A DNA stretch of 64,000 nucleotides from Liolophura sinensis (lineage: Eukaryota; Mollusca; Polyplacophora; Chitonida; Chitonidae). Under the pieces are notes generated by a model. The model was not told where the DNA came from. It made no database searches and was given only the letters and a program-made list of their open reading frames with translations. Numbering within the stretch: the stretch's first letter is position 1; every line of letters begins with the position of its first letter. This document shows, one piece after another, positions 1,205-34,430 of this stretch. The stretch spans positions 65,448,984-65,512,983 of the forward strand of contig NC_088300.1 in assembly GCF_032854445.1 (NCBI RefSeq). Direction: 5' to 3'. A program made the translations under genes and the position numbers.

Positions 1205-1500
1205 CAGTGTTATTGTATGTTAAATGTGATGACAACACAGCATTTTAAGTAATTCTAGACCAGTGCCGTCTAATAAATCCCAATTAACATCACTGCATTT
1301 TTTTGTACCTTCAGCCATGGTGCTCGGGCGCGTGTGAAATGCTACTAGTTATGCGTTTACATGAACAGTTAGAATTAAACCCTGACTGAGGCAAACTGAC
1401 AAGAGGCCGTTACGTTCTGACCATTTGTCAGCTATCACACTGTAGTGCCTGCTTTGGTTTTACTCTCTCTGCTGTACGTCTTTAATTATACCATACACGT
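1205..1500 (+). repeat. Interspersed repeat A, long copy
   Basis: Contains every conserved segment of repeat A in order: tatgttaaatgtgatgacaa (1216), aacatcactgcattttttt, gccatggtgctcgggcg, acatgaacagttagaat, ctgactgaggcaaactgaca, agaggccgt, gaccatttgtcagctatcac and ggttttactctctctgctgt. Partial copies recur at least ten times in the window on both strands. No terminal repeats or coding capacity were recognised, so the class is unknown. Confidence 0.7.
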
Positions 1501-7990: not shown

Positions 7991-8265
7991 TCCAACGTAA
8001 ATAAATATGAATTTAACCAGTGAAGACCCCTTCAATAAACGGAAATGTAAATTCGACGACAAATGTAACATTATGCATACTTTTACCGCAGGAATCCTGG
8101 TTTATGAAAGTTTACGAGATAACTAATAGAGTATAGCGAGTAAACCCAGAACAGGTACGACAGTGTGATGACTGACAATTACAGCCACATGTAATTGCAT
8201 GGTGAAATTAGGTCGTCCTCATATGAATACAACTATATATACAGAAACTATTAAGACGTAATCCC
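7991..8265. other. Intergenic DNA, nothing recognised
   Basis: AT-rich sequence between a SINE and the RT remnant. It may include further decayed upstream retroelement sequence that can no longer be read. Confidence 0.4.
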
Positions 8266-8734: not shown

Positions 8735-9135
8735 GCTTCATGATTGTGTTTAATTCCGCTTAACACGGAGCTATAGGGGAAGTATATTGATCGTGTTGAA
8801 GTCGAACGTTGGATATACGTAAAGTTGCAATCAAAGCGCAACTCACATTTATACTTTGTTATCGACGACTGATATTTTAGAATGGTACACCATTTGAATA
8901 CTGATTTCACTCAGTCGTCTAGAATATACCTTGCGTCTTTCCAGCATCACTGAAAACCGTTAACTGCTTCTCTTTGCGTGATTCCGTCCTATTTTCGTAC
9001 TTTATATACTTTCTTAGTTCATTGGTGCGTTGTTAGATGTCGTTTTGGGAATAGGCCATAATGATTATTGACCGAGAACGTCCCCATTAGATGACGGCTG
9101 GTATACGAATGTTTCTTTCGACGCATAGACCCTGA
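8735..9135 (+). repeat. Interspersed repeat B, long copy
   Basis: Shares ordered segments with the other B copies: ttaattccgcttaacac, gatatacgtaaagttgcaat, actttgttatcgacgactg, gaaaaccgttaactgcttct, ttatatactttcttag, gattattgaccgagaacgtc and gacggctggtatacgaatg. No coding potential or terminal repeats are evident, so the class is unknown. Confidence 0.65.
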
Positions 9136-9867
9136 CCAAATCACCTCGGTAGTTATATGCCGTTAATTGTTACAATACTTTTCGAATCTCGCAGTTTCAT
9201 TCTAGGTGGTGTAACTTACAGATAAAACCTAATGCACATTTGTAAGCTGTACATTGTTTCAGATTTCATATCTGGATAATTTCTCAATTTTAGCGTTGCT
9301 GTTTTACAAATCCAATAAACCGACAAGGTAAAGCCTTTCCAATCAAGGTCAGTAACTGATATAATTCCAGTTTGTTTGTTTGTAAGGAGACATGATTTCA
9401 GTTTCGCTTGACATAATGTAACTTGCAGAGAACAACAAATATATACGTTAACACATGGAGTTTCAGATTTCGTCTGTGTGAACGTCTTTCTCAATTTTAC
9501 ATATAGGTCTAAGGGTTATCGTTTTACAAATCATTCTAATCGAAATGGAAAACCTTTCCTATCTAGGGCAATAAATAGCATGCTTTTAGTTTTATTTGAC
9601 ATAATATGTAACTTTATTATAAGCAAGCACTATGCACATTAACTCGTCTGGCGTTAGACTTCAACATATTGAATACTGTTTTCTAATTTTACATATTAGG
9701 GTTAGCGTTTTACAAATCTTGTTAACCTTCTTGTTAAGATTCAAAAACTTTCTCATTTGTTTTAGTAATTGATATACGTAAGAGATTTTAATTGATATTT
9801 TACAGGATAGAACAAATTTAATTTACTGGTTACTCATACTGTAGGTGACATATACAAAAAGTAAAGA
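9136..9867. other. AT-rich intergenic DNA with a degenerate internal repeat
   Basis: Several loosely related blocks recur around 9285, 9510 and 9695, each with a 'gttttacaaatc' core and a nearby 'cataatgtaactt'-type motif, spaced roughly 200 bp. This looks like an old tandem duplication. No gene. Confidence 0.4.
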
Positions 9868-11005: not shown

Positions 11006-11170
11006 TCGTTTCAGTCAGTCAACAGTTAGGATAAAACTCTGACTGAGCTAAATTGACAAGAGGCTTTATTTCACTGGTTACTTGTGACCCTTTGTCGGCT
11101 ATCACACTGTCTTCGCTTTATTCGCTTTTAGTTTTTCGCTTTATATTTTGTACGGCTGTAACTATATTCA
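11006..11170 (+). repeat. Interspersed repeat A, partial copy
   Basis: Matches the right half of repeat A: acagttaggataaaactctg, actgagctaaattgacaaga, ggctttatttcactggttac and ttgtcggctatcacactgtc. It lies 450 bp from the 48-bp array, which is built from the right end of the same repeat in the opposite orientation. Confidence 0.65.
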
Positions 11171-11620
11171 GGCTTTAGAATGAAAAAGCTATACTCTCAC
11201 AATGTCTTATTTACAACTGTCCATAAACTGACAGGTGTAAATATCTTTATATATACAATAATATTGTAGTTAAGAGCATAGATACAGCCACAATTCAGAT
11301 ACTTAGTTCTCTACCTCTGATCAGATTCAAAGAGTTCAAGTCTCTACACATCAACTCTATTTCTCCCTCACATCTTCCTTTAAGCTAGGATTTACCAGAT
11401 AAAATTCCTTTGCAACCTGAAAAAATGTAACACAATGTGACAGAATGTTGAGCAACTAATTAAAGTATTTCACTGTTGTTTACCATACTCATACTTAAGA
11501 ATGTTTCACTTACATGATGGCGGTCAGTTTTATTGGTGGAGGTAACTGGAGTGCATAGAGTAATCCACCGAGCTAAGATAAATAACGGTTCGATATTGAT
11601 AATATAATTAAAGACGCACA

Positions 11621-12846
11621 GCATAGAGAGTAAAACCAGAGCAGCGACGAAAGTGTGATAGACGTATAGCATAGAGAGTAAAACCAGAGCAGCGACGAAA
11701 GTGTGATGGACGTATAGCATAGAGAGTAAAACCAGAGCAGCGACGAAAGTGTGATAGACGTATAGCATAGAGAGTAAAACCAGAGCAGCGACGAAAGTGT
11801 GATAGACGTATAGCATAGAGAGTAAAACCAGAGCAGCGACGAAAGTGTGATGGACGTATAGCATAGAGAGTAAAACCAGAGCAGCGACGAAAGTGTGATG
11901 GACGTATAGCATAGAGAGTAAAACCAGAGCAGCGACGAAAGTGTGATGGACGTATAGCATAGAGAGTAAAACCAGAGCAGCGACGAAAGTGTGATGGACG
12001 TATAGCATAGAGAGTAAAACCAGAGCAGCGACGAAAGTGTGATAGACGTATAGCATAGAGAGTAAAACCAGAGCAGCGACGAAAGTGTGATGGACGTATA
12101 GCATAGAGAGTAAAACCATAGCAGCGACGAAAGTGTGATGGACGTATAGCATAGAGAGTAAAACCAGAGCAGCGACGAAAGTGTGATAGACGTATAGCAT
12201 AGAGAGTAAAACCAGAGCAGCGACGAAAGTGTGATAGACGTATAGCATAGAGAGTAAAACCAGAGCAGCGACGAAAGTGTGATGGACGTATAGCAAAGAG
12301 AGTAAAACCAGAGCAGCGACGAAAGTGTGATGGACGTATAGCATAGAGAGTAAAACCAGAGCAGCGACGAAAGTGTGATGGACGTATAGCATAGAGAGTA
12401 AAACCAGAGCAGCGACGAAAGTGTGATGGACGTATAGCATAGAGAGTAAAACCAGAGCAGCGACGAAAGTGTGATAGACGTATAGCATAGAGAGTAAAAC
12501 CAGAGCAGCGACGAAAGTGTGATAGACGTATAGCATAGAGAGTAAAACCAGAGCAGCGACGAAAGTGTGATGGACGTATAGCATAGAGAGTAAAACCAGA
12601 GCAGCGACGAAAGTGTGATGGACGTATAGCATAGAGAGTAAAACCAGAGCAGCGACGAAAGTGTGATAGACGTATAGCATAGAGAGTAAAACCAGAGCAG
12701 CGACGAAAGTGTGATAGACGTATAGCATAGAGAGTAAAACCAGAGCAGCGACGAAAGTGTGATAGACGTATAGCAAAGAGAGTAAAACCAGAGCAGCGAC
12801 GAAAGTGTGATAGACGTATAGCATAGAGAGTAAAACCAGAGCAGCG
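11621..12846 (-). repeat. 48-bp minisatellite, about 25.5 copies, derived from repeat A
   Basis: Near-perfect 48-bp periodicity (unit landmarks gcatagagagtaaaaccaga and gcagcgacgaaagtgtgat). The main variation is A/G at one site (gatagac/gatggac), plus rare agcaaagag and ccatagcag variants. The unit is the right end of repeat A: single copies of the same words occur at 24354 and 34299. Because 48 is a multiple of three and one minus-strand frame lacks stops, an open frame of 454 codons with a hydrophobic 16-residue period crosses it. I regard that frame as a by-product. Confidence 0.97.
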
Positions 12847-13654
12847 ATTCCTAAATTAGTTTTAAAGTCACTTTCATGTCCAAAGAAGAAAGCCGAGAAG
12901 CTTTTGAATACTTTTATATGTTATGACACACGCTAAACTCCATATTAAGAAACAGAAACCAAACGTTTCATTTATGCTTTAAGCGGTTTTTTTTTCTTTT
13001 CAGTAAGATGTTTGAGACAGGAGAAAACGGGGAAGATCTGAAGAGAAACTATTGCACGTCGACAGACACCGCAGATGAATTAGATGAAAATGCACTCGAA
13101 CATGCTATCTCATTGTTCAAGAGCTAGTCGTCTACAACAGAAAACCGTTAGACATGGGGACCAGAAAAGGAGCCTTGAAGTTATATCTATGATCTGGTCT
13201 CAAACTTCTACTAATTTTCCATAAGCGACACTATTAACTTTTTGTTCTGTAACTCAACATTGCTGAGTATTGTTGCCTACCTTCTCCAACCTGTCAGAAA
13301 GCAGCCAAAACATAGGTTGACCATCAAAGTTTGGGCCTCGTGTGCAACGTCAGGGGGACGTCACTCTTGAGTATCATCATTATATGGCAACATGTATTCT
13401 GTTTTCAATAATTTCAAATGTTCATCAATGTAGACAATTCCCATTATTTCCATACCAAGCATGCACTTTTACCTCAAAACACGGGTGACCAACTCATTTG
13501 CATTACTAGCATTATGGCGAAGTAACATAAGATCAAGAGCAATGGCACGGATACTACAACATTCTTAAACGAGTGTGAAGGAAATCACGAGTTGTTCATG
13601 TTTCAACTTTAAAAGCATTACCCAGCATCACGGGGTAAGGTATGAACGGTGACT
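12847..13654. other. Intergenic DNA between minisatellites, nothing recognised
   Basis: No gene or repeat identified. Open frames are short. Confidence 0.5.
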
Positions 13655-14165
13655 GAGTTATAGAAGACGAACAGTGCGATACAGAGTGAGTTATAGAAAA
13701 CGAACAGTGAGATAGAGAATGAGTTATAGAAGTCGAACAGTGCGATAGAGAATGAGTTATAGAATACGAACAGAGCGATATAGATTGGGTTATAGAATAC
13801 GAACAGCACCATACATGCAGCGGTATAGAATACGAATTGCGTGACACCGAGTTAGTTATAGAGCACGAACAGGGCGATACAGTGTGACTTATTGGGCACG
13901 AACAGGGCGATAAAGAGTGAGTTATTGGGCGCGAACAGAGCGATACAGAGTGAGTTATTGGGCACGAGCAGGGCGGTACAGAGTGAGTTATTGGACACGA
14001 ACAGGGCGATACAGAGTGAGTTATTGGGCATGAATAGGGCGATACAGAGTGAGTTATAGAGCACGAACAGGGCGATACGGAGTGAGTTATAGAGCACGAA
14101 CAGGGCGATACAGAGTGAGTTATAGAGCACGAACAGGGCGATACAGAGTGAGTTATACAAGTAGA
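13655..14165. repeat. 33-bp minisatellite, about 15 degenerate copies
   Basis: Unit landmarks gagttatagagcacgaacag and ggcgatacagagt. The left half is more diverged (agaagacgaacagtgcg), while the right half (from about 13850) is more uniform. Since 33 is a multiple of three, chance open frames with 11-residue periods run through on both strands. I could not connect the unit with certainty to repeats A or B; a similar single word (gttatcgaatacgagc) occurs near 15495. Confidence 0.93.
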
Positions 14166-14219
14166 ACACGAGCAGCACAGGGAAGCCAGTTATGGAATAA
14201 AACAGAGCTGGACAGTCAG

Positions 14220-14424
14220 TTTTATTTATTTATTTATTTATTTGATTGGTGATCGTTGTATTCAAGAACATTTCACCAATACGACGATGACCAGCACGGC
14301 CGTCCACAGGTTGTTAGGAGATCTTCCCACATACGGGGAAAAGGAAGCCAGCATGACCTGCACTCGAACTCAATGCGATCTCATTCGTAAGAAGTTCCTG
14401 GGTCATTGCGCTGTTCTAGCATAA
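14220..14424 (-). mobile_element. SINE type 1, nearly complete minus-strand copy
   Basis: On the + strand it starts with the complement of the tail (ttatttatttatttatttga) and 'gattggtgatcgttgtattc', continues through the body (accagcac, aggttgttaggagatcttcc) and the complement of the B box (ctcgaactcaatgcgatc), and ends near the complement of the A-box side (gggtcattgcgctg). The extreme 5' end is missing. Confidence 0.8.
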
Positions 14425-14464
14425 TAGACAATGCTCCCACTGGAACAGTCTATATACATTTCAG

Positions 14465-14549
14465 TTAACATCACTGTACTTTATTTTTACCTAATTGTGC
14501 TTAAGCTTTGGCTCTGCTGGGCGTATAACATGCTACGTTTTAAGCATTA
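14465..14549 (+). repeat. Repeat A, left/middle part leading into the 47-bp array
   Basis: aacatcactgtactttattt, then a cttaagctttggctctgctgg segment and a tgctacgttttaagcat segment match repeat A just before the point at which tandem copies begin. Confidence 0.6.
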
Positions 14550-14822
14550 CATGAACAACCAGAATAACACGCTAACTGAGGTAAATTGACAATGTGCATA
14601 ACCAGAATAACACGCTAACTGAGGTAAATTGACAATTTACATGAACAACCAGAATAACACGCTAACTGAGGTAAATTGACAATTTACATGAACAACTAGA
14701 ACAACACGCTAATTGAGGTAAATTGACAATTTACATGAACAACTAGAATAACACGCTAATTGAGGTAAACTAACAATTGACATGAACAACTAGAATAACA
14801 CGCTAACTGAGGTAAATTGACA
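14550..14822 (+). repeat. 47-bp minisatellite, 6 copies, derived from the middle of repeat A
   Basis: Unit: acatgaacaaccagaataac plus acgctaactgaggtaaattg plus acaattt. Copies are close to identical; the second lacks a few bases at its start. The unit corresponds to the 'acatgaacaattagaataaaac ... ctgactgaggtaaattgaca' segment of single-copy repeat A (for example 1361-1402), showing in situ expansion of an internal part. Confidence 0.92.
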
Positions 14823-15216
14823 AATGGCTAACTAGTTTAAATCTCAATGTTGTTGTATTTGTACTAACCTTTTGTTAATTGCAAATAAACTATTTTGCAA
14901 TCCTGGTGTTCCATTTCAAGGTTTTGCCTACTTCTACTGATCTCTGTACTAGGTTGACGTATTACTGATGCTTTTCCGCCTACAGTTGCAATAAAGTGAG
15001 AATAGTATAGCCCTAAGACTATTTATATTGAACCCAAATGGTGATATAGGTCATGGAATTTAAATTCACATTTGAATTTTCATGCCTGGAAATAGGTGCA
15101 AGCTCTTCCTCACACAGCTGAAAATAGACGCCTGTTGGCTTTCCTTTGCCTTCAACCAATCGTACTTTCATACTTTTTACTTAGTTAATGCATCGCGCTT
15201 TACACCATCTCTGATA

Positions 15217-15331
15217 CGATTACGGCCGGAGAGGAAACCAGCATGAGCTGGACTTGAACTTACAGCGATGGCTTTGGCTAGACGCTCCTGAGTCATTGTG
15301 CAGCGCTAACTTCTAGGCCGCGGAGGCCTGC
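15217..15331 (-). mobile_element. SINE type 1, head-only fragment
   Basis: Complement of the tRNA-like head: ggccggagaggaaaccagca, ggacttgaacttacagcg (B box) and aggccgcggaggcctg (A-box side). The 3' half and tail are missing, so this is a broken copy. Confidence 0.75.
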
Positions 15332-15604
15332 GAATCTTATATTGCACATGAACAGTGGGATGAAGTAAGAAAATACGATCAATGGGAATAAAGTCACTAA
15401 TACAGTAGGTCACTAACAGATTATAAATAGTTGGGTATGGCTTATGTGATAGAGTGCGCCTGAGCATTATGTAGTGTAATCATGCCGTTAGTTATCGAAT
15501 ACGAGCTATACATGTATGTGTCTGTACGCCGAAGCATTCGTAAATCCGTACTCCAGCCGCCAACAAATACGGGTAATATATGTTCCAGGTTAATAATGTG
15601 ACGG

Positions 15605-16280
15605 AGTTAGATCGAATGTAGCAGCACACGGATTAACACAAGGGTCACAATGTAGCAGCTGGCGGATTAACACAAAGATACAATGTAGCAGCATGATGAG
15701 ATTAACAATCTAAGTTGTTAATATACATATCCTTATCATCAAAGATTACAATGTGGTAGTCCACGGATAGCACAAAGGTCACAATGCAGCAGCACACGGA
15801 TTAACACAAAGGTCACAATGTAGCAGCAGACGGATTAACACGAAGGTCACGATGAATCTGCGAAAGAACCCAAAGATCACACTGAAGCAACATACGGATT
15901 ATCGCAAAGGTTATAGTGAAGCAATAGACAAATTCTTACAAAGCTAAAATGTAGCAATTTACAGATTAACATAACATTCAAATTACAACAACACCGGGAT
16001 TAACACAAAGGTCACACTGTGTCGGCATATGTATTAGCACGAAGGCCCCTGTAGCAGCATACGGACTGATGCAATGAAACAACATACGAATCGACACCAT
16101 ATACTTTAATACAAAGATCAATAAATTGCAGATTATAGATTCATATGAAGGTCAAAATGTAGCCGGGTTTGCTACATAGATCAGGATTGACACGTCGATT
16201 CACATGAACTTCACCAGCAGAATAATATACGTCTATAGGGATCAGGGCCAGCATGTGAATTCACTCGAAGGTCACACGAA
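15605..16280 (+). repeat. Degenerate minisatellite, period about 30-34 bp
   Basis: Recurrent words gtagcagcacacggattaac and acaaaggtcacaat are repeated with many substitutions and length changes from about 15615 to at least 16030, fading to 16270. The heavy divergence indicates that it is older than the neighbouring arrays. Confidence 0.75.
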
Positions 16281-16290
16281 TAGCAAATAA

Positions 16291-16475
16291 TTAAGAGAGA
16301 AAACCCAGAGCAGTGACGACAGTGTGATAGCTGGCAAATGGTCACACATAACCGGTGAAATACCACCTTTTGTCAACTTACCCCAGCTGGGGTTTTTATT
16401 CTAATTATTCATGTAAATACATAAATAGTTGCAAATTTCACGCCCCCAGCACCATGGTTTGAGCAATATGACAGA
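16291..16475 (-). repeat. Interspersed repeat A, right two-thirds
   Basis: Complement orientation: gagagaaaacccagagcagt, gacgacagtgtgatagctgg, caaatggtcacacataaccg, gtgaaata, ttattctaattattcatgta and cccagcaccatggttt. This is one of the best references for aligning the three A-derived arrays, because it keeps all three source segments in single copy. Confidence 0.75.
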
Positions 16476-17844
16476 CCGCTAGAGATCAGCATCAGTAGAA
16501 GGGTTCACATGAACTCGCGCTTTTATTGCAACTATTCATAAAAGTACCACGTTGATGTAATAAAGATGGATGCTTTTATACCTCCTAGCCCCGGAGTTCA
16601 GCGGAGTTTCATACCGCTATGATGTAGATCACCAGAGATCCTAAATACTCTGTCCATATTTACCAAGTAGAGTGTTGGACTCAGTGTAGAATTTAAGAAA
16701 TAAAATGTTTGATGAAGTATACTCGACATGCTAATTTTTGATTGTGACGTAGATGGAAATAATAAGATTTAACACATGTATGTAAAACTGCTGTGTGATC
16801 GATGGGAGATAATTGCGACCCTAATCCGGTCTTGTGTGCCGTACATTCTATCGCTGTAATATGTATAATAATATAAAGGAAATTCATAAATTCAAATCTG
16901 ATTCTACTTAAAATGTTCACGTCAAAACTACGTACAAATGAGATTTGCTTATCATATCGATGAATAGGAAGCAATTACAAAAAAGACTGATACGGCATTC
17001 CTTTATTTCTTTATCTGTGTTAATTGTATTTCTTTTTGTGACATGTGAAATAATATAGCTGTAAGGAAAAAAGGTTATATTTTAAAGTTATAAAAATTGA
17101 TATTTTAGAAATTTTGTAATGATTAGCCATTAAGTTATGTTGGTGTTAAAATTGTACTTTAAACGAATACAGAAGGAGAAAATAAGTCTGGTACAAGCAG
17201 GTCAGAGTAAATAAAGGCCTCTCTCGTATCACATACAAATGTCGAGTTCTGAATATCCACGTTTTCCATTTTCTTTAAGCGCTGAAAGGACAATTTTTGT
17301 ATTAGACTTTATTTTGTGTTTCAATACACTTAAGACCCTTCACAAACAGATTCCGAACATTGTGATTTTTATTCCCTTCCCCTACCCCACCCTCTTGCAT
17401 GGGATTCACCATCTTTTGATGACTTTCGTTTACAATGTTAGGATTACCATTATCAGTCATTTCATGGAAAATGTAAAATCAGATCATATGAGAATAAACT
17501 GACGTTTTCTTGCATTCTGAGTGAGTTGTTCAGGATTTCGCATCTTGGATCAAAATTTTACAACCAGACGGTTTATAAGATAGATTCATGCATCTAAATC
17601 GCAAATTTATTCCAGAAGTCGCATAGTAATCAGTTATAGTATAGTATTATGAAAAAAATTATAACAAATCGTGATATTTGAGTCACATTTATCTTCTATT
17701 ACGGACTTTGTCGTGTGCGTACAAAGTTCTCAAAAGTCCTGCCTGCTTTGGAGCTGAAGGTAAATTATGAGATGCAACGCCGTGGAAAATGCGCTCACTA
17801 AACAATAAAGAAACAATTCCTAGTGAAACCTTATATATAAAACA
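16476..17844. other. AT-rich intergenic DNA, nothing recognised
   Basis: No gene. A 'tagccccggagttcagcgga' segment near 16587 has a loose counterpart near 26190, hinting at another old dispersed repeat. Confidence 0.45.
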
Positions 17845-17975
17845 CTACAGCGCAGAGAGTAAAATCAGAGCATTGGCCAGATTGCAATGCGTGGCAAATG
17901 GCCATTCGCCAATAACCACATTTAGGGTTTTTTTTCTATCTGTTCAGGTAAATGTAGTAGCTGCAAATACGTACG
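17845..17975 (-). repeat. Interspersed repeat A, diverged partial copy
   Basis: Words acagcgcagagagtaaaatc, gcgtggcaaatggcca and tgttcaggtaaatgtagtag follow the order of repeat A in complement orientation. Confidence 0.55.
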
Positions 17976-18529
17976 TCCCCGACTTTAGCAGAATTAGATC
18001 AAATTATTAGACGCCAATGGCATATAATTACTCAAAATGTTGCCTTGTCATGACACTTAATATACAAACACATTAAAAGAATGCAAAGAGACGTATTTGT
18101 AACCTTTTAAAAATTGTCTCGAAGGATCTCGACCGGGAGGAAGGAAGTGGTGCTCTCATGAATCAGGTACAGGGAGATAAGAGCAAGCATTCCATTGCTG
18201 CGCCGGGTTATTTCCCCTGATCACTCCATAATTGTCACCCGTTTTTTCACGATATTTTCAGCATGATATTTTGAACACACACTTCAAAAATAGAAATAGA
18301 ATATTTATTCTGGGAAATTTCATAAAAATTTAAATCTAGGAATCAAAATAATAATTCCTATTTCAGTTATCAGCTATAATAGATTCTCCGGGTTAATAGT
18401 CACAACCCCTAGCCCCAAAACAGCGTTCAACGCAAACCACTTAAGAACCAAAAATATATAAATTTCAACAGTACCTAACTGTTTAGTCATAGAAAGAAAA
18501 TATAATTCTAAAATTGTGGACACGCCATA

Positions 18530-18700
18530 TTCCTGACGTATGTTAAACGTGATGACAATACAGTATTTTGAGTAATTATCGACCAGTGACGTCTGATAAA
18601 TTGCACTGCATTGTTTTTTTCCTAATTCTGCAAGGACTTAAATTAACAGGAGGCCGTATTTCACCGGTTACGAACGTATTTGCCGACAGTCCTTTAGGAG
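18530..18700 (+). repeat. Interspersed repeat A, left part
   Basis: tatgttaaacgtgatgacaa, tacagtattttgagtaatta, tcgaccagtgacgtctgata and aggaggccgtatttcaccgg match the copy at 1205-1500. It forms an inverted pair with the opposite-strand copy starting near 18838. Confidence 0.65.
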
Positions 18701-18837
18701 ACCTGATAGTTATAGGGTTTGTGTACCGACCCCCCAGGTAGTTGATTTGCAAAACGATCAATGCTCAAATTGCATTCACATTTTGTTTCTATACTCGACC
18801 TTGCCAGAACACAGGACAATTGATCAAAGTAGCAAAC

Positions 18838-18985
18838 GGCAGTGTGATAACTGGCTAATGGTCACATATAACCGCTGAAATATGGCCTCTTGTCAATTTA
18901 GCTCAGCGATTTATTCTGATTGTTCATGTAAATGTATAAATAGTAGCAAGTTACAGGTAAAAAATGCAGTGTTGTTGATTGCATT
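18838..18985 (-). repeat. Interspersed repeat A, right part in opposite orientation
   Basis: ggcagtgtgataactggcta, atggtcacatataaccgctg, aaatatggcctcttgtcaat and gattgttcatgtaaatgt are the complement of repeat A. Only about 140 bp separate it from a + copy, giving a potential fold-back. Confidence 0.65.
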
Positions 18986-19124
18986 TTATACCGATACAAG
19001 TCCAGAGACTTGTAAGATTAGGATCGACCTAAGTGACAATTCTCGGTCAGCGACGCTCACATGTTTGCCGAGCCTAACGTTCGTTGAAACCTTGCATTTG
19101 TCTTTCACCAATATGACATATCTA

Positions 19125-19215
19125 AGCCATGGTGCAAGGGCCTTGCCAGTTGCTGCTAATTAAGCATTTACATAAACATTTGGTATGAAACACGAACTGA
19201 AGTAATCTAAAAATA
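19125..19215 (+). repeat. Interspersed repeat A, short fragment
   Basis: gccatggtgcaagggcc, taagcatttacataaacatt and acgaactgaagtaatct follow repeat A order. Diverged. Confidence 0.45.
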
Positions 19216-19284
19216 GAAGGTGAGAATTTGCATATCAAGTAGCGCAATGTCGTTGCTACTTTGCTTTTACCCTTCATTAGGCGT

Positions 19285-19575
19285 AGGAGCTTTGTATGAT
19301 TTCCGTCCTATTTTCGTACTTTATATACTTTCTTGGCTTTTCGGTAGTTTGTGTTAAATGTCGTTTTTGGAATTGGTCTTGCGATTATTGACCCGGAACG
19401 TCCATACAAGTATGCCAGTCGTCAATCAAAATTGACGTTCCGGTTTAATAATTGCCAGACCATTTTCCAACCCAACATTTAAAGCATCAAAAAGCTAAGA
19501 AAGTATATACAGTGCGTCATTAGAACGACTTGGTACAAAGAAGCAATTCAGTAATGACGGAAAGACACAAATAAT
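19285..19575. repeat. Inverted pair of repeat B fragments (fold-back, arms about 130 bp)
   Basis: The left arm (19290-19420) contains gatttccgtcctattttcgt, tatatactttcttggctttt and gattattgacccggaacgtc. The right arm (19432-19570) is its diverged complement: gacgttccggtttaataatt, aagctaagaaagtatataca and taatgacggaaag. Single-strand copies of this DNA could form a long hairpin. Confidence 0.7.
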
Positions 19576-19689
19576 GTTCTGGGAATGGGATAAATCAATA
19601 TCCAAACGAAAAATGGCAAAATTTGTACCCCTTGAAATCGCCAAAGTCTACAGATATAAATTAATACTGAAAAGTTGTGGCTCGTGGAT

Positions 19690-20300
19690 TTATAATCCTC
19701 ATGGTGAATAAAATCACACTGCAATCCAAGTGCAACTGATAATCCTCATGGTGAATAAAATCACACTGCAATCCAAGTGCGACTGATAATCCTCATGGTG
19801 AATAAAATCACACTGCAGTCCAAGTGCAACTGATAATCCTCATGGTGAATAAAATCACACTGCAATCCAAGTGCAACTGATAATCCTCATGGTGAATAAA
19901 ATCACACGGCAATCCAAGTGCAACTGATAATCCTCATGGTGAATAAAATCACACTGCAATCCAAGTGCAACTGATAATCCTCATGGTGAATAAAATCACA
20001 CGGCAATCCAAGTGCAACTGATAATCCTCATGGTGAATAAAATCACACTGCAATCCAAGTGCAACTGATAATCCTCATGGTGAATAAAATCACACTGCAA
20101 TCCAAGTGCAACTGATAATCCTCATGGTGAATAAAATCACACTGCAATCCAAGTGCAACTGATAATCCTCATGGTGAATAAAATCACACTGCAATCCAAG
20201 TGCAACTGATAATCCTCATGGTGAATAAAATCACACTGCAATCCAAGTGCAACTGATAATCCTCATGGTGAATAAAATCACACGGCAATCCAAGTGCAAC
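19690..20300 (+). repeat. 47-bp minisatellite, exactly 13 copies, within repeat B
   Basis: Unit: tgataatcctcatggtgaat, aaaatcacactgcaatccaa and gtgcaac, 13 x 47 = 611 bp. It is almost uniform, with scattered cacacggcaa variants in three copies. The 'gcaatccaagtgcaactga' part matches single-copy repeat B (gcaatcaaagcgcaactca near 8829), and sequence after the last copy continues repeat B, so this is an internal expansion. Confidence 0.95.
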
Positions 20301-20546
20301 TGAGATACATACTTTGATTATCGACAACTTTTAACCTAGCATTGTACACGAATTCTAAACGGATTTGATTCATTCGGCAAGTCAATTCCGTGTGGCTTTT
20401 GGTCGTCATTGAAAACTGTTGATCGCGTCTCTTGCATGAAGGCGTCCTACTCTCTCACTTTATGGACTTTCTTAATTCTTTGGTTGTTTGTGGTCAACTT
20501 TGTTTTGAAAAGTGGTCTTGCCATTACTTCACGCGAAACTTCCATT
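20301..20546 (+). repeat. Repeat B, unexpanded middle segment between two arrays
   Basis: atacatactttgattatcga, gaaaactgttgatcgcgtct, actttatggactttcttaat and gtggtcttgccattactt align with the copy at 8860-9090. This shows that the arrays at 19690 and 20547 belong to one repeat B copy. Confidence 0.65.
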
Positions 20547-21016
20547 TTGGTTGACGACTGGTATATGAATTCTGTTTTAACGCCTAGCTATATATATGTT
20601 TTGGTTGACGACTGGTATATGAATCCTGGTTTGACGCCTAGCTATATATATATTTTGGTTGACGACTGGTATATGAATTCTGGTTTGACGCCTAGCTATA
20701 TATATGTTTTGGTTGACGACTGGTATATGAATTCTGGTTTGACGCCTAGCTATATATATGTTTTGGTTGACGACTAGTGCACGAATTCTGGTTTGACGCC
20801 TAGTTATATATATGTTTTGGTTGACGACTGGTATATGAATTCTGGTTTGACGCCTAGCTATATATATGTTTTGGTTGACGACTAGTGCACGAACTCTGGT
20901 TTGACGCCTAGTTATATATATGTTTTGGTTGACGACTTGTATATGAATTCTGGTTTGACGCCTAGTTATATATATATGTTTTGGTTGACGACTGGTACAC
21001 GAATTCTGGTTTGACA
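20547..21016 (+). repeat. 54-bp minisatellite, about 8.7 copies, within repeat B
   Basis: Unit landmarks ttggttgacgactggtatat, gaattctggtttgacgccta and gctatatatatgtt. Variants include actagtgcacgaa and one copy with an extra TA. The source segment is single-copy in other B repeats (tagatgacggctggtatacg at 9090; gttggtggctggtatacgaa at 22780). The 54-bp length keeps chance frames open on both strands (18-residue period). Confidence 0.94.
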
Positions 21017-21109
21017 CTTTGACATATTTGGTATATTTCTTGATGTCATTATTGCATTGTGTATGAAAAAAAAATGAAACTGAATTCGTGTTTGAACATC
21101 AAAATGCCC

Positions 21110-22280
21110 TCTAAACAGGACATGTATACAGAACCTTGGGTAGCTTCAAACGTTTGATCTGTTTCATTTTGCACACCTTTTATTGATGATAGTTTACTTT
21201 AAATTTATTTCATATACCCAGTAATCAAGACTTTTTACTCTTTTGTGGTAGAGTTAGTTGGATGCATCTATTTCGAACTTCACCTACACATGCAGTGGCG
21301 TTGAATTCATATTTTTTATTACAATTTTGAAAAACTATCCTGGAAAGTAATTTTACTTTTAGGTTAAAATTGTTTAAACTTAAAAATTGATTATCTCTTA
21401 CATTTGTAACCAAGTCGTAAAACTACCCAACACTATGAAAATGCATTATGAATATAAAACGTGTATTGAAAAAAACTTTAAAAAATCAAAGAGTTGTATC
21501 CTGAAGCAATTTCGTGGTCGTATCATACCGTGCATCGCGTATTACAGTAGAACATTCTGCTATTTTCAACGTATCAAAAATTTAAACTACATGTCGCGTG
21601 TTCATATTTTTTATCAAACTATTGGGCATGACAAAATAGGTGGTGGATAGCGAACCTGGCCAATGAGCTTTCAGTTCTTTCGTACACTAACAAAACTACA
21701 CTACACGTATTTTAACAACGTACACAGTAACAGTACCGAAATTTTAAAGCGTGTGACAATCTCTAATTGTGGGAATTTCATCTAATTAGTGCTCCAGTAC
21801 TCATTAGTGGGTAACTTTGAAGGACTAAATTAGGAGAACCAGATCGCTGCAAAAACACATTGTGCCTTCCCTAAGGTTACAGCGTTTTTGTAACAACTAA
21901 GGTTTTTATTCTCTAAGTCTTTTTATGTGTGAAAATACTCCGAAAAGTGTGTCGTATTACAGGAAGAAGAAAAAAGTACAAAAATTTGGAGTTTCATTCT
22001 GAGGCAAGTCTGAATTGGGCACAATAATACAAGTTCCATTCTTCATTAATACAATTTACTAAATACTAACCATATTACCTCCCCTTATCTAGCATCTTGT
22101 TTTGACAGATGCGCTCTTGTCAGAATAAGGGCACGTCGGCATTCGTTGCCATTTAAGTTGTAAGCTTTAATACTAAACGTTTTAACAGAGAAATTGTCAG
22201 TGTGTTGGACATTTCTATACATGTGCATGTGTGAATGATCTCTTAAAACTTACTGTGGACTGGCTAAGAATATAAACCAC
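21110..22280. other. AT-rich intergenic DNA, nothing recognised
   Basis: No gene or clear repeat. The sequence just after the 54-bp array (to about 21110) is probably the right end of repeat B. Confidence 0.5.
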
Positions 22281-22345
22281 GGGAATGTTTTATACATTAC
22301 AGTCCAACCATGCCCCCAGCACCACGTTTAAAGTGTAAAATTTAT
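22281..22345 (-). repeat. Interspersed repeat A, short fragment
   Basis: ccatgcccccagcaccacgt resembles the complement of the gccatggtgctcgggcg segment of repeat A. Low certainty because of its length. Confidence 0.35.
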
Positions 22346-22684
22346 AAGTTCAAGACTCTTCATTAAAAGACTTCGTTTTATAAGAATGACAGTTCAGGAT
22401 TTGTGCATTTTTATTCATAACTTTTTCTAATTCACCTTGACCTGAGTATCTCCCAGTGACTGTATAAGCATCACTCATGGTGGTGAAACGTTGCCACGAT
22501 TTGTAACAGTAGGAACTCGTTACTAAAAAGAGGATTGTATACGTTGTTTCCATGTCATTGTTTTTTAATTTATCCTCATTTAATGTATCCTTATTTAATG
22601 CATCCTCGTGCAACACAGCATTAATTATAATCTCTATAATTGTAGTCTATTTAACCTGCTCTGGTCTATATAACAATCCGTTCG

Positions 22685-22835
22685 AATTACGAAATTGTAT
22701 ACTTAGTTCTTTGGTGGTATGTGTTGAACGTTATTTTGTACACTGGTCTTGCGATTATTGACCAGGAACGTTTGTTTTGGTTGGTGGCTGGTATACGAAA
22801 GTGGGAAAACGCATAGATTTACGTCGAACCATTGA
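22685..22835 (+). repeat. Interspersed repeat B, right-part copy
   Basis: tagttctttggtggtatgtg, tggtcttgcgattattgacc, aggaacgtttgttttggttg and gtggctggtatacgaaag match repeat B. The segment that forms the 54-bp array elsewhere is single-copy here. Confidence 0.65.
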
Positions 22836-23077
22836 CAACGGGTACATACCTATCTAAACGGTCGACAGCATTATCTCCCCTTGTCCATGGCCGGAGATCT
22901 GTGGCAGGCAGTATAATAGTGATCATAAGTATGCTGTTCTCCGAAAAGCTTAAGCTATCTTTAATGGGTAAGAGTAATGATTAGAATAGCCAAAACATCC
23001 ACTGGATCGTCTACGTTGATCAGATTCAACACAAAACATGTATCTGATTGTATTAACAGATGTGCTTTAAAAAAATC

Positions 23078-23172
23078 GACCCTGTTTCCTCCCACCATTA
23101 TGCTGATCGCCGTCCTATAAGTAAATATTCTATAATACTGCGTGAAATACCATCAAATAAATAAATAAATGA
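23078..23172 (+). mobile_element. SINE type 1, 3'-end fragment
   Basis: cctgtttcctcccaccatta, tgctgatcgccgtcctataa and a diverged 'actgcgtgaaataccatcaa' with AAAT tail. 5' truncated; several substitutions mark it as old. Confidence 0.7.
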
Positions 23173-23309
23173 AAATGAATAGCAAGAGGTGGCGATAATT
23201 TGATTATCGATGTCTCGTTACTGGCAAATACTTAATCACATAGGTTGGGATAAGATAACCCTCGTCGTAAGTGAAAGATAAAATGGTTGTGGCGCCTAAA
23301 TAAAAAGGG

Positions 23310-23347
23310 TTGAGGAGAAAAACCATAGCAGCGAAAACAGTGTAATA
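23310..23347 (-). repeat. Repeat A right end, leading into the 32-bp array
   Basis: ggagaaaaaccatagcagcg and aaaacagtgtaatactgg correspond to the complement of the right end of repeat A. Confidence 0.55.
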
Positions 23348-23475
23348 CTGGGCCAATGGTAGCACGTAACTCCTGAAATCTGGGCCAATGGTAGCACGTA
23401 ACTCCTGAAATCTGGGCCAATGGTAGCACGTAACTCCTGAAATTTGGGCCAATGGTAGCACGTAACTCCTGAAAT
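23348..23475 (-). repeat. 32-bp minisatellite, 4 copies, derived from repeat A
   Basis: Unit ctgggccaatggtagcacgt plus aactcctgaaat, 4 x 32 bp with one substitution. Its complement (atttcaggagttacgtgcta, ccattggcccag) matches the 'atttcaccggttacgtgtga, ccatttgtcag' segment of repeat A, which lies between the segments expanded at 11621 and at 14550. Repeat A continues after the array (ggttttagtccaactgtag). Confidence 0.9.
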
Positions 23476-23564
23476 CTGGCCCCATATGCGTTAACCTCAG
23501 GGTTTTAGTCCAACTGTAGTATGTATGTATGCTTGGGGCTTAGCGTCGAGTAATTTGGTGTACA

Positions 23565-23826
23565 TATATTGTGTCTGAATAAATGCCGCCGCTGAAGTAT
23601 CATACCGAGGACACCAGACACGGCACCCCAAGGAGTCACATTATACTGACACCGGACCAACCAGTCCTGTTTCCTTGCTCTAACCCTTCAGTGCTGAGTG
23701 CCAAGGGAAGCAGCAACAAGTAACAAGACAACAACAGACCTATGTGTCACCCGATCCAGGTTTGATCTCGGGCGTCCCTACTTCAAGGCCGACGGTCTAA
23801 CCATTAGGCCATCGAAACGGAACATC
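23565..23826 (-). mobile_element. SINE type 3 (tRNA-derived head with distinct body)
   Basis: Minus-strand reading begins with a tRNA-like head (gtttcgatggcctaatggtt, A box; cgagatcaaacctggatc, B-box-like). It continues with a body (ggcactcagcactgaagggt, ggaaacaggactggttggtc, cggtgtcagtataatgtgac, ctcggtatgatacttcagcg) that I recall as a recurrent SINE body in mollusc genomes. Length about 260 bp. No target-site duplication was located. Confidence 0.7.
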
Positions 23827-24349
23827 CAAGTGTAGTGTTCACAAGTATTATTTTAGTTAGTAAGCGTCACAAACAAATACATCGTATTCCTTTCCTTGAC
23901 TTGAAGTCCAGATTTCTTCATCCATATGAAAGATTACGTACCTTGTGATTAGTCATGACTGATTCCACCCCAGTGTGCTTATAGTAAAGTCTTTGACATC
24001 AAATACCCATTCTTCTAAAGAATGTAAGCAAACTAAGCAAATCACGTGGGAGTAATCGAAATTATCGAAGATAACAAGACTTGAAAAGAGGCTTCTTTGT
24101 TAGGAGGAATGGTATTAGACGCCTAATCATAAGACATATGTGGACCCCTCCTCCGTTTACGTAAACAAACAAAACAGTTTGATGTTCACTGATATAAGGA
24201 TTTAAATTCTGAGGGTTGGTAGAAGCAGAAGACCTCGATGAAAGCCTATTCCCTGATAAAACCAACAACAGCAGGAATATCGTAGATCGTGTGGGAGCAT
24301 CGTTGTGATACATTTAAGCCTTTATCACATGATATAATTAAATATAAAA
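23827..24349. other. Intergenic DNA, nothing recognised
   Basis: No gene or clear repeat. Confidence 0.5.
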
Positions 24350-24390
24350 ATCTACAGCATAGAGAGTAAAACCAGAGCAGCGAAGACAAG
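24350..24390 (-). repeat. Repeat A, single-copy right end
   Basis: acagcatagagagtaaaacc followed by agagcagcgaagaca. This is a single copy of the sequence that makes up the 48-bp array. Confidence 0.6.
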
Positions 24391-25760: not shown

Positions 25761-25904
25761 TTTCTGTTAGGTAAAGTAAAGAATGAATGTTAAATAGATT
25801 TACATTTTGAAGACCGTGTGTGAAAATATGCGATACATTATACATTGTGATTGGTTAGGAGTCTGTTTAGCCGTCCCATCAAACAACCCTGGGGCAATCG
25901 AGAA

Positions 25905-26065
25905 CCATAAAGGACGTTCCAGGTAAATAATCTCAACGTACAACACAAACCACCAAAACCTAAGAAAGTATACAATGTAAGACTTAGGGACGGGGTCATT
26001 TCCAGAGAAGTAGTCGACAGTTTTCAGTTATGGCGGAAAGACACATACAAAGATGTTTTCGTCGC
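25905..26065 (-). repeat. Repeat B, right-part copy on the minus strand
   Basis: ggacgttccaggtaaataat, accaaaacctaagaaagtat, cgacagttttcagttatggc and ggaaagacac are the complement of repeat B. Confidence 0.6.
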
Positions 26066-27235
26066 ATTTATTTAATGAGAATCTCTTATCTTGTTGTTAA
26101 TCAAACGTCAGTTTCTCAGTTACGCTTTGTTTTCAACTGTTCTTATCTCAAAAACGGTGCTTTTTTTTTCAACATGATGCGTATACATCCCCTAGCACCG
26201 GGCGGAGTTAAGTAGAATTGAACACAACTATATATGAAACGTCGTCAGATATTCGGGACATTTATTTTCATTACAAAATTGAACATGGCATATTTTGTAT
26301 TCATGACTTGTTATATAATAGGCAATTGTTACCGAACCACTGCATATTGAGGAAGGAAGGATGGCTGCATCCATTAACAACATCAGGAAGAGGTTATTTC
26401 ACATGCAGGTCAAATTAGGGCAGATACAATTCCTACACCCACCAAAAATCGACCACCTCATGCATGATCAACAATTACCATACTCGTTTTCAACGCAGCC
26501 ATTAAACTACTAATTTCCATAAAAAAAATTAATGTGTAGTTTCAGTTTTAGTCGCCAATGAGAATACGGCATGTACTTTTGCTATTTTTTCAGAAGATAA
26601 TTAAATATTTATCATTATCAACCCAAAGTCATAATTACTATGTTTACATTCCTTCCTATGATACTCAGAATTGAACCACAGAAGGGCAGGATTTGGAACA
26701 AGCTGTTACATGAACTCAAATCTATGATTTCCAAATCATTTTCCCAGTGGAAATTATAGGCTGACACATCTTGTGTCTCTTTCTGTCTCCTTATTTCCAT
26801 GCACGTGACTCCTTAATGTTTAATTTTGTTCTATATATTAATGTGTTTTGAAATATCTTATAATTTCGTTACACATGGTCAACTTTATAATATAGTAAAA
26901 ACCAAATTTTCCCTTTTCTGGACTTTTAAATGTTCTCATTTTTTGCAATGATCAACAAGAGTTCAAAATCACAGAAAATTCTACACTGTTCATCGGTTTG
27001 GAAGCTTTTTACCTGTTTGTGCTTAGGAGACGTAAATCGGTAAAGTGGACGGGGATGATTTTTAATACCTTTTCTCCCGCCACAAGCACTTTTCTCTCAG
27101 AATAGACTGATGTGGTGCCTTTTAAAAATACAGTTATATGAAGTTCACTGACATCATTTCAATCTTCGGAATGTTGGTATGCATGTTGAATATTTTAATT
27201 TTTAAGATTTAACGATTTAGCTAAATTACCAAGTT
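26066..27235. other. AT-rich intergenic DNA, nothing recognised
   Basis: No gene or clear repeat. Confidence 0.5.
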
Positions 27236-28670: not shown

Positions 28671-28860
28671 CTTTATAGCTGCATTTTATTTACCTAATAC
28701 TGCTTCGCCGTTGGGGAGGGGGGGGGGAGTATATGTTGTTCATTTTTAAGCATTTACATGAAGAATTGGTGGGTAAACTGATAATAGCCAAAATTTCACC
28801 GGTGACATGTGATCGCGACTGCTCTGGTTTTTACTCTGTTTGGCAAGTTACTGGCCAGCT
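28671..28860 (+). repeat. Interspersed repeat A, near-complete copy with G-rich tract
   Basis: tttaagcatttacatgaaga, gggtaaactgataatagcca, aaatttcaccggtgacatgt and gcgactgctctggtttttac follow repeat A. A GGGGA(G)10 tract lies at about 28713-28727 where other copies have 'gctcgggcg' or 'gctgggcg'. Confidence 0.65.
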
Positions 28861-30930: not shown

Positions 30931-31382
30931 ACTTTTATTGGCTGATAGATCTGGCAAAAAAAACTTGTGAATGTTGATCTTTCTTATATATAATTCATAA
31001 ATAAGTAGCTCATTTTATTAAAGTGTTGTTATGTCATCACAACCCATTGGCCCACAACATAAGTTAATACACGAAGTAAGAGTAAGTTAAAAATCCTTGA
31101 CCGTACATAAGGCGTTGAACGTCATTCAAATAAATAAGTACTAAAATTATATGAGATGAAATAAATGAGATGTAGGGTCTATATTGGATAAGGCAAGTTA
31201 TAAGAAAATTTTAATGCATTTTGTTAAAGTTACATTTTTAGAAATCCAAGTGTAGTTAAAACTGATTCCAAGTTTTCCAATGGAATAGATTATATTCCTC
31301 TTATAATTCAATTCTATAAATACCCTCCGAGATTTCAAAAGTGAAATTCTGTCTTCTTTTTATGTACTATTTTAATTAATTT
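30931..31382. other. AT-rich DNA between two convergent SINEs
   Basis: No gene or repeat recognised. Confidence 0.5.
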
Positions 31383-31650
31383 ATCTATTTGTTTGATTGG
31401 TGTTATACGGCGTACCTGAGAATATTTTACTAATACGACGGTGGCCAGTATTATGGTGGAGGAAAGCGGGACAGAGCCAGACCCATGACCATCCGCAGAC
31501 CCATGACCATCCGCAGACCCATAACCATCCGCACCTTCCCATGCACGTATGTCCGGAGAGGAAGTCAGCCTGAGCTTCGCTTGTACTCACGGCGACCGCA
31601 TTGGCGAGAGGCTGCTGGGTCATTACCTCGGCCACGGAGGCCCCTCGATT
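31383..31650 (-). mobile_element. SINE type 1, minus-strand copy with an internal 18-bp triplication
   Basis: Complement of the family from tail (tttatctatttgtttgattg) to 5' end (cacggaggcccc). The tRNA head is shortened near the A box (ggccgaggtaatgaccc read on the minus strand). An 18-bp unit agacccatgaccatccgc is present three times in tandem (31479-31532), once with a substitution. The full copy at 30651 has this segment once, inverted. Confidence 0.88.
31479..31532. repeat. 18-bp tandem triplication inside a SINE
   Basis: Three consecutive copies of agacccatgaccatccgc, the third with 'ataacc'. A small-scale example of tandem growth inside a dispersed element. Confidence 0.93.
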
Positions 31651-33045: not shown

Positions 33046-34289
33046 GATGTCAAATGAACAAAACAGACGACACAATCACTAAAGCGGGAACAGTCAGAAG
33101 TGATGACGCGTCCTGCACTCCCAAACTGCCTAATCTGCAGAAAGAAAACCCTTCTTGGACACCAACAGAAATCACTTTAATTGCTGTAAATCAGTTAATG
33201 GACGCACTGTGTCTCAATCTACTCTTCCTGTGATCCACAAACCATAGCCTGGATTCTGCCCCTCACTCAGTATAGTTTAGGCATATAACTCATCAATTCG
33301 GTCATGATAACTTTCAGATTTGGGCAAAGCGAGCGACTTGTAAAACACAGGGAAACATTTTGGACGTTCATCTTCGGAGTCGCCCTATACTAGTGAAAAA
33401 TTAGTATAACGCATAGTTTTAAGTGGTTAAAAGTTAAGTCTAGGTAATTTCAATGCCCCGCCCCCTCCAGTCGGACCCCCACCTACACCAACCTGTAAAA
33501 TCTGACTGCCATCTTACATCCGGGTGTAAACATTCAAAGTATGATAGATACGTATGTTTTATTTCCGACACAGAAATGGCCTATATCACATTCAATGAAA
33601 AATATATAATAAAGTATAGTAGGTCTAATGTAATAAGTGAAATAGCAATCAATCGAATAAACAAGACTTATCGAATTGTCATAACAAGACTGGTTGATCA
33701 TAAACTTTTATCATGTTTCCTTTTTGTTGTGAATAAAAAAGTTATTTGTAAAAATAATAAAGATTACTGAAATATAGCATTTCAAACATTACTTAGTTGG
33801 TTTAGTTTGCTCACATGAACGAAAGCATGAATAAGCAAACCTTGTCTATCCTGCATGAACTCATGTATCACGTGATCACGACTTCATCGGTAAAAAAAAC
33901 CTATTTGGTACACCATGCATCGCTCTGTTTTGGAGGCATTTTGTTTAGTAATCCAGCTGTTCATCCCCAAAATGATGCAACATGTCACAGTGTTTTGTGG
34001 ATTTTGTGATCTAACTTCCCGACATTGTTTATTAATTGGATCGATTCTAGAGCAGAGTGCCATCGACCTCCATGAAGAGCACTGGAGCCAGGCGGGCCAC
34101 AGATTGAAGTTCACGCCGAAATATTAGAGACCTATAGTTATAAGTTACAAAATGAAACCTGTGACTTGTAACTTCAAAGTAGAATTAGTTTACCTATGCT
34201 AGTTTGAAGTCGCAATTTACAAGTTGAACTTCTAACTTCTAACTAAATGTCTATAATAACGACTAAGACATACGGGAGCTTATAACTTG
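33046..34289. other. Intergenic DNA, nothing recognised
   Basis: Open frames in this stretch, up to about 105 codons, have no recognisable domains. Short self-complementary words built on 'aagttacaa/ttgtaactt' occur near 34140-34260. Confidence 0.45.
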
Positions 34290-34430
34290 CAGCACAGAGA
34301 GTAAAACCAGAACAATGATGCCAGTATGATACTTGACAAATCCGTCCACTTGTCAGTTTGCTTCATTTAGTGCTCTTTTCTAACCGTCAATGTATATATG
34401 CATCATAGTATTGATGTGATGTCATAGCTG
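34290..34430 (-). repeat. Interspersed repeat A, right part
   Basis: gcagcacagagagtaaaacc, agaacaatgatgccagtatg and cttgtcagtttgcttcattt follow repeat A in complement orientation. Confidence 0.6.

Follow-up and report, generated by a model that had tools for sequence, protein, structure and literature searches.

Tandem arrays probably derived from adjacent segments of a dispersed repeat in the chiton Liolophura sinensis

A dispersed repeat in an array-rich stretch of chiton DNA

We analysed a stretch of 64,000 nucleotides from the chiton Liolophura sinensis (NCBI RefSeq assembly GCF_032854445.1, contig NC_088300.1, positions 65,448,984 to 65,512,983 of the forward strand), referred to below as the window, with all positions counted from its first letter. 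The window holds 14 loci of a dispersed repeat, here called A, three of which carry tandem arrays with units of 48, 47 and 32 bp. It also contains a second repeat (B) and a repeat resembling a short interspersed nuclear element (SINE), and further arrays. An initial annotation, made from the letters alone, had proposed that the three arrays arose by independent tandem expansion of parts of A.

To describe A, a profile was seeded with three copies and iterated with nhmmer on the window. Seven arrays were masked beforehand (the three A arrays and those at 13654, 15615, 19692 and 20545), because circularity in the profile was to be avoided. After iteration, the profile spans 293 positions and matches the masked window at 13 places, the weakest of them with an E-value of 6e-8; beyond position 34398 the masked window contains no match at E<=0.01. 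In 20 shuffled masked windows, no match reached E<1e-5 and the best had an E-value of 0.062 (masked letters removed; shuffling within blocks of 200 bases that preserved dinucleotides, or else plain shuffling).

The best array-free copy lies at 1219-1492 on the plus strand and covers model positions 1-292. Its neighbourhood includes a run of exactly 200 N at 775-974, probably an assembly gap. The other array-free copies found with nhmmer are at 8116-8214 (minus strand, model 195-292), 11019-11166 (plus, 152-290), 16284-16471 (minus, 83-278), 17832-18060 (minus, 2-290), 18542-18685 (plus, 1-99 and 182-230), 18824-19006 (minus, 36-257), 19093-19274 (plus, 76-267), 24343-24388 (minus, 241-286, the 3' part only), 28675-28842 (plus, 71-271) and 34277-34398 (minus, 144-287). 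In this count, the matches at 18542-18631 and 18639-18685 were merged as one rearranged copy, and the match at 14437-14546 represents the sequence immediately left of the 47-bp array. The total of 14 includes the loci of the 48- and 32-bp arrays, and 10 of the 14 fall within 11006-24390.

The copies are old and degenerate, with a median pairwise identity of 0.67 (45 pairs with at least 50 aligned positions). The 3' end of A is present in many copies and the 5' end in few, so the 5' end is not fixed, and A appears to be a dispersed element of at least 293 bp. As to its nature, no Rfam match at the gathering score and no transfer RNA (tRNA) gene that would point to a catalogued RNA-derived origin was found within the window. 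Terminal inverted repeats, as expected of a miniature inverted-repeat transposable element, were likewise not found: a scan of three A regions, covering inverted pairs of 14 nt or more and not shorter or poorer ones, gave 0, 1 and 1 pairs, neither of which joins the two ends of A. A literature search with four stretches of A-like or 48-mer sequence found no paper.

Array units map to three adjacent segments of A

The largest of the three arrays (1.24 kb) has a 48-bp unit and occupies 11612-12847 (25.8 units by Tandem Repeats Finder) within an A locus at 11603-12847 on the minus strand; about 10 bases of A continue on its left, and on its right the array stops mid-unit. The 47-bp array (6.0 units, 14547-14823) belongs to a plus-strand locus at 14437-14823, in which A up to position 145 precedes the array and no clear A sequence follows it. 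The 32-bp array (4.1 units, 23348-23479) has A on both sides, in a minus-strand locus at 23315-23525.

Units were compared with A, with B and with one copy of the SINE-like repeat on both strands, using doubled consensus sequences so that the comparison was free of phase, and with 300 dinucleotide shuffles per unit. This mapping took 11 of the 29 Tandem Repeats Finder rows; left out were rows with a period below 17 and six with a period of at least 17 (5957, 11619, 37036, 38165, 50412 and 50450), two of which (11619 and 50450) overlap tested arrays. The 48-mer aligned with A 233-279 (43/47 identical) and the 47-mer with A 145-192 (43/48 identical), with 0/300 shuffles as good in either case. 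The 32-mer aligned with A 201-229 (22/29 identical). Counted as whole units, these segments correspond to approximately 233-280, to 145-192 and to 201-232. When their own arrays are set aside, the 48- and 47-mers have listed BLAST matches (E<=0.05) at A loci only; for the 32-mer, no match in the window was listed at this threshold outside its own array. These alignments, together with the flanks of the 32-bp array described below, show that the unit of each A array derives from A.

The mapping agrees with the initial annotation on several points. Single-copy versions of A with the three segments in order had been reported, and are found here at 1219-1492 (plus strand) and 16284-16471 (minus strand). 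The segments had been proposed as the units of separate 47-, 32- and 48-bp arrays, which the mapping confirms with one correction: the 48-bp array starts at about 11612 rather than 11621. The units come from distinct, non-overlapping and nearly abutting parts of A, in the order given before, with gaps of about 8 and 0-3 positions between them.

Profile alignments and whole-window matches include array units, and masking hides the ends of copies beside arrays. For this reason, flanks without array units were also aligned to A, with 1000 shuffles each. In the profile alignments, A 39-192 leads into the 47-bp array from the left, the alignment at the 48-bp array continues to A 290 on the left and stops mid-unit (around model position 244) on the right, and the ends of the 32-bp array align with A 148-229 and A 195-265. 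The whole-window matches at the 32-bp array have E-values of 1.7e-9 and 1.1e-5, array units included. When taken alone, one flank of the 32-bp array matches A 233-265 (27/33) and the opposite flank matches A 155-173 (17/19), with 0/1000 shuffles as good for each, and the left flank of the 47-bp array matches A 50-145 (78/99, 0/1000 shuffles). The 32- and 47-bp arrays thus lie in copies of A, the latter in a copy that is broken at the array. The flanks of the 48-bp array give thin evidence of a surrounding copy, so its link to A rests on the unit itself.

Arrays most likely expanded after the dispersal of A

Each of the three A arrays is homogeneous. With partial end units left out, mean identity within the array is 0.98 for the 48-mer (25 units), 0.98 for the 32-mer (four units) and 0.91 for the 47-mer (six units). 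When each unit is compared with the array-free copy most similar to it, the mean identity is 0.85, 0.74 and 0.85, respectively, with maxima of 0.88, 0.75 and 0.91. Between copies of A, the same segments have mean identities of 0.71 (48-mer segment, seven copies), 0.79 (32-mer, five copies) and 0.72 (47-mer, seven copies). Each of the 35 units is most similar to another unit of its own array (25/25, 4/4 and 6/6), and the arrays therefore most likely grew after A had dispersed. Such an order of events is strongly supported by the sequence comparison, as the identities within arrays and between copies are those that late, separate and local expansion would predict. No doubled segment was found among the 13 array-free A matches; the sole same-strand pair less than 300 bp apart covers different segments of the model.

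We propose that copies of A first spread as a dispersed element, and that a piece of 32-48 bp inside each of three copies was then separately duplicated in tandem. Slippage, unequal exchange or gene conversion would then have expanded the duplicates and homogenised them in place. We consider this history of an old dispersed repeat followed by three separate local duplications, expansion and homogenisation to be probable (approximately 0.85). The initial annotation had likewise placed the dispersed copies before the independent expansion of parts of one element, which is supported by the identities and by the absence of doubled segments in array-free matches. Its claim that the arrays sit in different copies of A also holds, with a caveat for the 48-bp array: they occupy three different loci of the 14, and A is matched by both flanks of the 32-bp array and by the left flank of the 47-bp array, while the flanks of the 48-bp array are not significant alone. 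The window gave neither of the results that would contradict the annotation: the units do map to distinct neighbouring segments, and nothing indicates that the arrays predate the dispersed copies.

A number of observations weigh against this history. The 32-mer is less similar to copies of A (0.74) than these copies are to each other (0.79), and for its alignment to A 2/300 shuffles were as good. The 32-mer unit alone would be a weak case, and its origin from A is secured because both array-free flanks match A. One unit of the 47-bp array is 0.91 identical to a dispersed copy, the same value as the mean of the array itself. The right flank of this array does not match A (318/1000 and 438/1000 shuffles as good). 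On the left of the 48-bp array, 10/10 bases match A 282-291, the expected place, and 88/1000 shuffles do as well somewhere in A in a comparison with strict scoring; on its right, 130/1000 shuffles are as good in the strict comparison and 6/1000 in a lax one, the latter at A 138-181. In the A consensus, the direct repeats that frame the units do not stand out, as equally high scores are reached at 44/225, 35/240 and 172/224 positions for the same lag. Finally, all results come from this single 64-kb window.

Other histories would also place arrays beside copies of A. The arrays could have formed once, in source elements, and have been moved here by transposition as internal repeats, like the central repeats of Helentron-type elements described in the oyster Crassostrea gigas (PMC7492417, in the part of that study used here). 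This is improbable, as the arrays lie at three different places in A, no array is present at 11/14 of the A loci in the window, and each of the three arrays occurs there only once. A still smaller probability attaches to the reverse order, in which the arrays came first and the dispersed copies of A are escaped monomers. The acquisition and dispersal of satellites by mobile elements is reported for other cases in the section of PMC3648361 considered here; at this locus, however, a unit resembles the other units of its array more than it does any array-free copy, and the copies are more diverged. An origin as escaped monomers is harder to sustain because the longer copies of A hold each of the three segments once, in one order and with common outer sequence.

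It is similarly doubtful that errors in sequencing or assembly made or lengthened some of the arrays. Long near-identical arrays are prone to length errors, the 200-base run of N at 775-974 lies within the window, and the copy numbers of the arrays may be wrong in the assembly. Nevertheless, a simple artefact would not give the variants, common to several units, by which the units of the 48-bp array differ, nor the identity of only 0.91 within the 47-bp array.

Element B and the SINE-like repeat

The profile of B finds six loci at E<1e-4 (near 8985, 18355, 19304, 20443, 22679 and 25835), most of which are about half an element long; this count leaves out a seventh, weak match at 15529-15598 (E 0.0017). 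B is foldback-like in its copy at 19304-19527, which is nearly palindromic: its arms measure 52 nt and 47 nt, with a complementarity of 79% and 77%, and this copy has the long inverted repeats and little unique sequence between them that characterise a foldback element. No inverted pair of at least 14 nt was found in the B regions at 8900-9200, 22650-22900 and 25900-26150, and the region 20300-21100 contains only short inverted pairs that do not frame B.

On the plus strand at 20443-21015, an arm of B leads to a 54-bp array (8.7 units, 20545-21015). Its unit maps to the centre of B (104-128, 23/25 identical, 0/300 shuffles as good). The B copy at 20443, on the minus strand of the model, reaches position 127 and the 54-mer covers 128-104, so the unit follows on from the copy; as this copy runs up to the border of the masked array, its true end cannot be placed by the masked search. 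The centre of another B copy, at 22679-22806 (plus strand), aligns with 48/54 bases of the 54-mer, 34 of them identical, a figure without a shuffle control. B, a second repeat unrelated to A, thus appears to have made an array as well, which argues against anything special about A.

The third parent repeat occurs at about nine places in a self-comparison of the window, and some of its copies end in AAAT runs. We call it SINE-like on the basis of a presumed resemblance; the window yielded neither a tRNA gene nor an Rfam match. Inside its copy at 31359-31626 lies an 18-bp array (3.1 units, 31478-31533), the unit of which matches the repeat at 17/18 positions (0/300 shuffles as good). Apparently B and the SINE-like repeat went through the same process as A. 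As these repeats have also seeded arrays, what we describe is the ordinary local birth of minisatellites, in a stretch rich in arrays, from what is left of dispersed repeats; no evidence of function was seen.

An array-prone locus or array-prone elements

Seven arrays with a period of 32-54 and at least 4 copies lie within 11612-23479, that is, in 12 of the 64 kb. The simulated chance of such clustering, for the starts of seven uniform points, is 0.00025; the clustering was noticed post hoc, and a row of 1.9 copies of 31 bp at 37036 falls below the cut. For three of the seven arrays (33, 34 and 47 bp, at 13654, 15615 and 19692), no parent was found among A, B and the SINE-like repeat. Of the non-array DNA of the region, 13.2% is A, which accounts for 3/7 arrays (P(>=3) 0.054), and 19.0% is A and B together, which account for 4/7 (P(>=4) 0.028).

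That the arrays use three different segments of A is unsurprising, since three random segments would be non-overlapping with a chance of 0.29 (uniform) or 0.24 (weighted by copy coverage). The near-adjacency of the units has a simulated chance of 0.0027 (uniform) or 0.0031 (weighted by copy coverage), a question that was posed after seeing the data. The regional clustering is a stronger oddity than this near-adjacency.

There is about an even chance that the locus itself is array-prone and makes minisatellites from whatever sequence is there, A and B being merely common in it. This is compatible with an origin of the arrays from A, and rivals only the idea that A is special. It would explain the clustering of seven arrays in 12 kb and the three among them that match neither A, B nor the SINE-like repeat; the P values of 0.054 for A and 0.028 for A and B also speak for it. 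Yet A and B still carry somewhat more of the arrays than expected, the region and its arrays were chosen post hoc, and the 18-bp array in the SINE-like repeat falls outside the cluster. These data do not distinguish between an array-prone locus and elements that are mildly array-prone. The two differ in their genome-wide predictions and, should the locus be responsible, the features that mark such a region would merit study.

Initiation of the arrays and borders within A

For A and B alike, we infer an initial duplication of 32-54 bp and growth by slippage, unequal exchange or gene conversion. As the direct repeats that frame the units are not enriched, microhomology-led slippage is not supported as the way in which the first duplication arose.

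The near-adjacency of the units could also mean that the 3' half of A was divided beforehand into modules (approximately 145-192, 201-232 and 233-280), the borders of which served as repeated starting points for tandem duplication. If so, one element would amount to a ready-made set of minisatellite seeds. The ends of truncated copies fall within 5 positions of unit borders in 3/14 cases, where 18% of positions qualify (P(>=3) 0.49); inclusion of an end at 278, near the end of A, gives 4/15 (P 0.29). As copy ends are not gathered at unit borders and framing repeats are not enriched, there is no support for such borders, and we regard pre-existing modules as unlikely.

Comparison with known systems

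The conversion of dispersed into tandem repeats has already been described in print, and the A arrays are a new instance. The closest precedent is a survey of human minisatellites derived from transposable elements (TEs; Ahmed and Liang 2012, PMC3389668). In the portion of this survey drawn on here, at least 23% of human minisatellites and satellites are attributed to TEs, and the positions of tandem duplications are mapped along Alu and LTR12 (LTR, long terminal repeat), with hot regions in AluS and LTR12 and none in AluJ and AluY. As in A, arrays are described there as starting at or after the insertion of single TE copies, at various positions, and as expanding locally, most of them without framing direct repeats. 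Established mechanisms may explain only 6% of the TE-derived tandem repeats according to the same account, and the lack of support for microhomology-led slippage at our locus fits this figure. The two cases differ in their parent repeats, A being a different and unnamed one, and in distribution: the survey, in that portion, reports no obvious genomic hotspots, whereas here three arrays from nearly abutting segments of A lie within 12 kb. Homology of the unit to part of a dispersed repeat, by which TE-derived minisatellites are recognised, was found for the 48-, 47-, 54- and 18-mers (0/300 shuffles each) and for the 32-mer (2/300 shuffles, with flanks at 0/1000).

Other systems share some of these features. 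The maize repeats CRM1TR and CRM4TR were, in the text of PMC3648361 relied on here, independently created from parts of dispersed elements and then homogenised locally, like the A arrays. Unlike A, their parents are LTR retrotransposons in or near centromeres, and the maize events involved similar regions of two related subfamilies, whereas the A arrays come from different regions of one element. In Drosophila virilis, the foldback element Tetris feeds a tandem array, as B appears to do; its TIR-220 repeats are in the inverted repeats, are approximately 220 bp long and form arrays of kb size, whereas the 54-mer of B comes from the centre (PMC4079207, as excerpted). The Cg_HINE Helentrons of C. 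gigas resemble A in that parts of a dispersed element flank short satellite-like arrays. Their arrays are the central repeats of the elements (PMC7492417, same part), whereas A has no array at a fixed central position: its arrays occur in 3/14 loci, at three different positions, and the other 11 have none. Satellites and TEs have also been linked in molluscs (PMC5139131), and legume satellites arise from arrays inside retrotransposons (PMC7004042), both as stated in the passages of these papers used here.

With parent copies of A and daughter arrays side by side within 13 kb, the window is a small natural system in which the initial conversion of a dispersed into a tandem repeat could be studied directly.

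Other arrays and surroundings

In six of the 11 tested arrays, the unit resembles neither A, B nor the SINE-like repeat beyond the level of shuffles. Besides the three in the cluster (33 bp at 13654, 34 bp at 15615 and 47 bp at 19692), these are arrays of 22 bp at 50456, 17 bp at 1908 and 20 bp at 61228. The one that comes closest to being an exception is the 34-mer, for which 16/300 shuffles were as good against A. The 34-bp array is decayed: beyond its core at 15615-15854, diverged matches continue to approximately 16045, and further traces can be seen by eye up to the A copy at 16284-16471.

The window also contains an open frame with a homeodomain, which we take to be NK2-like. This frame lies at 46815-47696 and matches Pfam PF00046 with an E-value of 5.8e-21.

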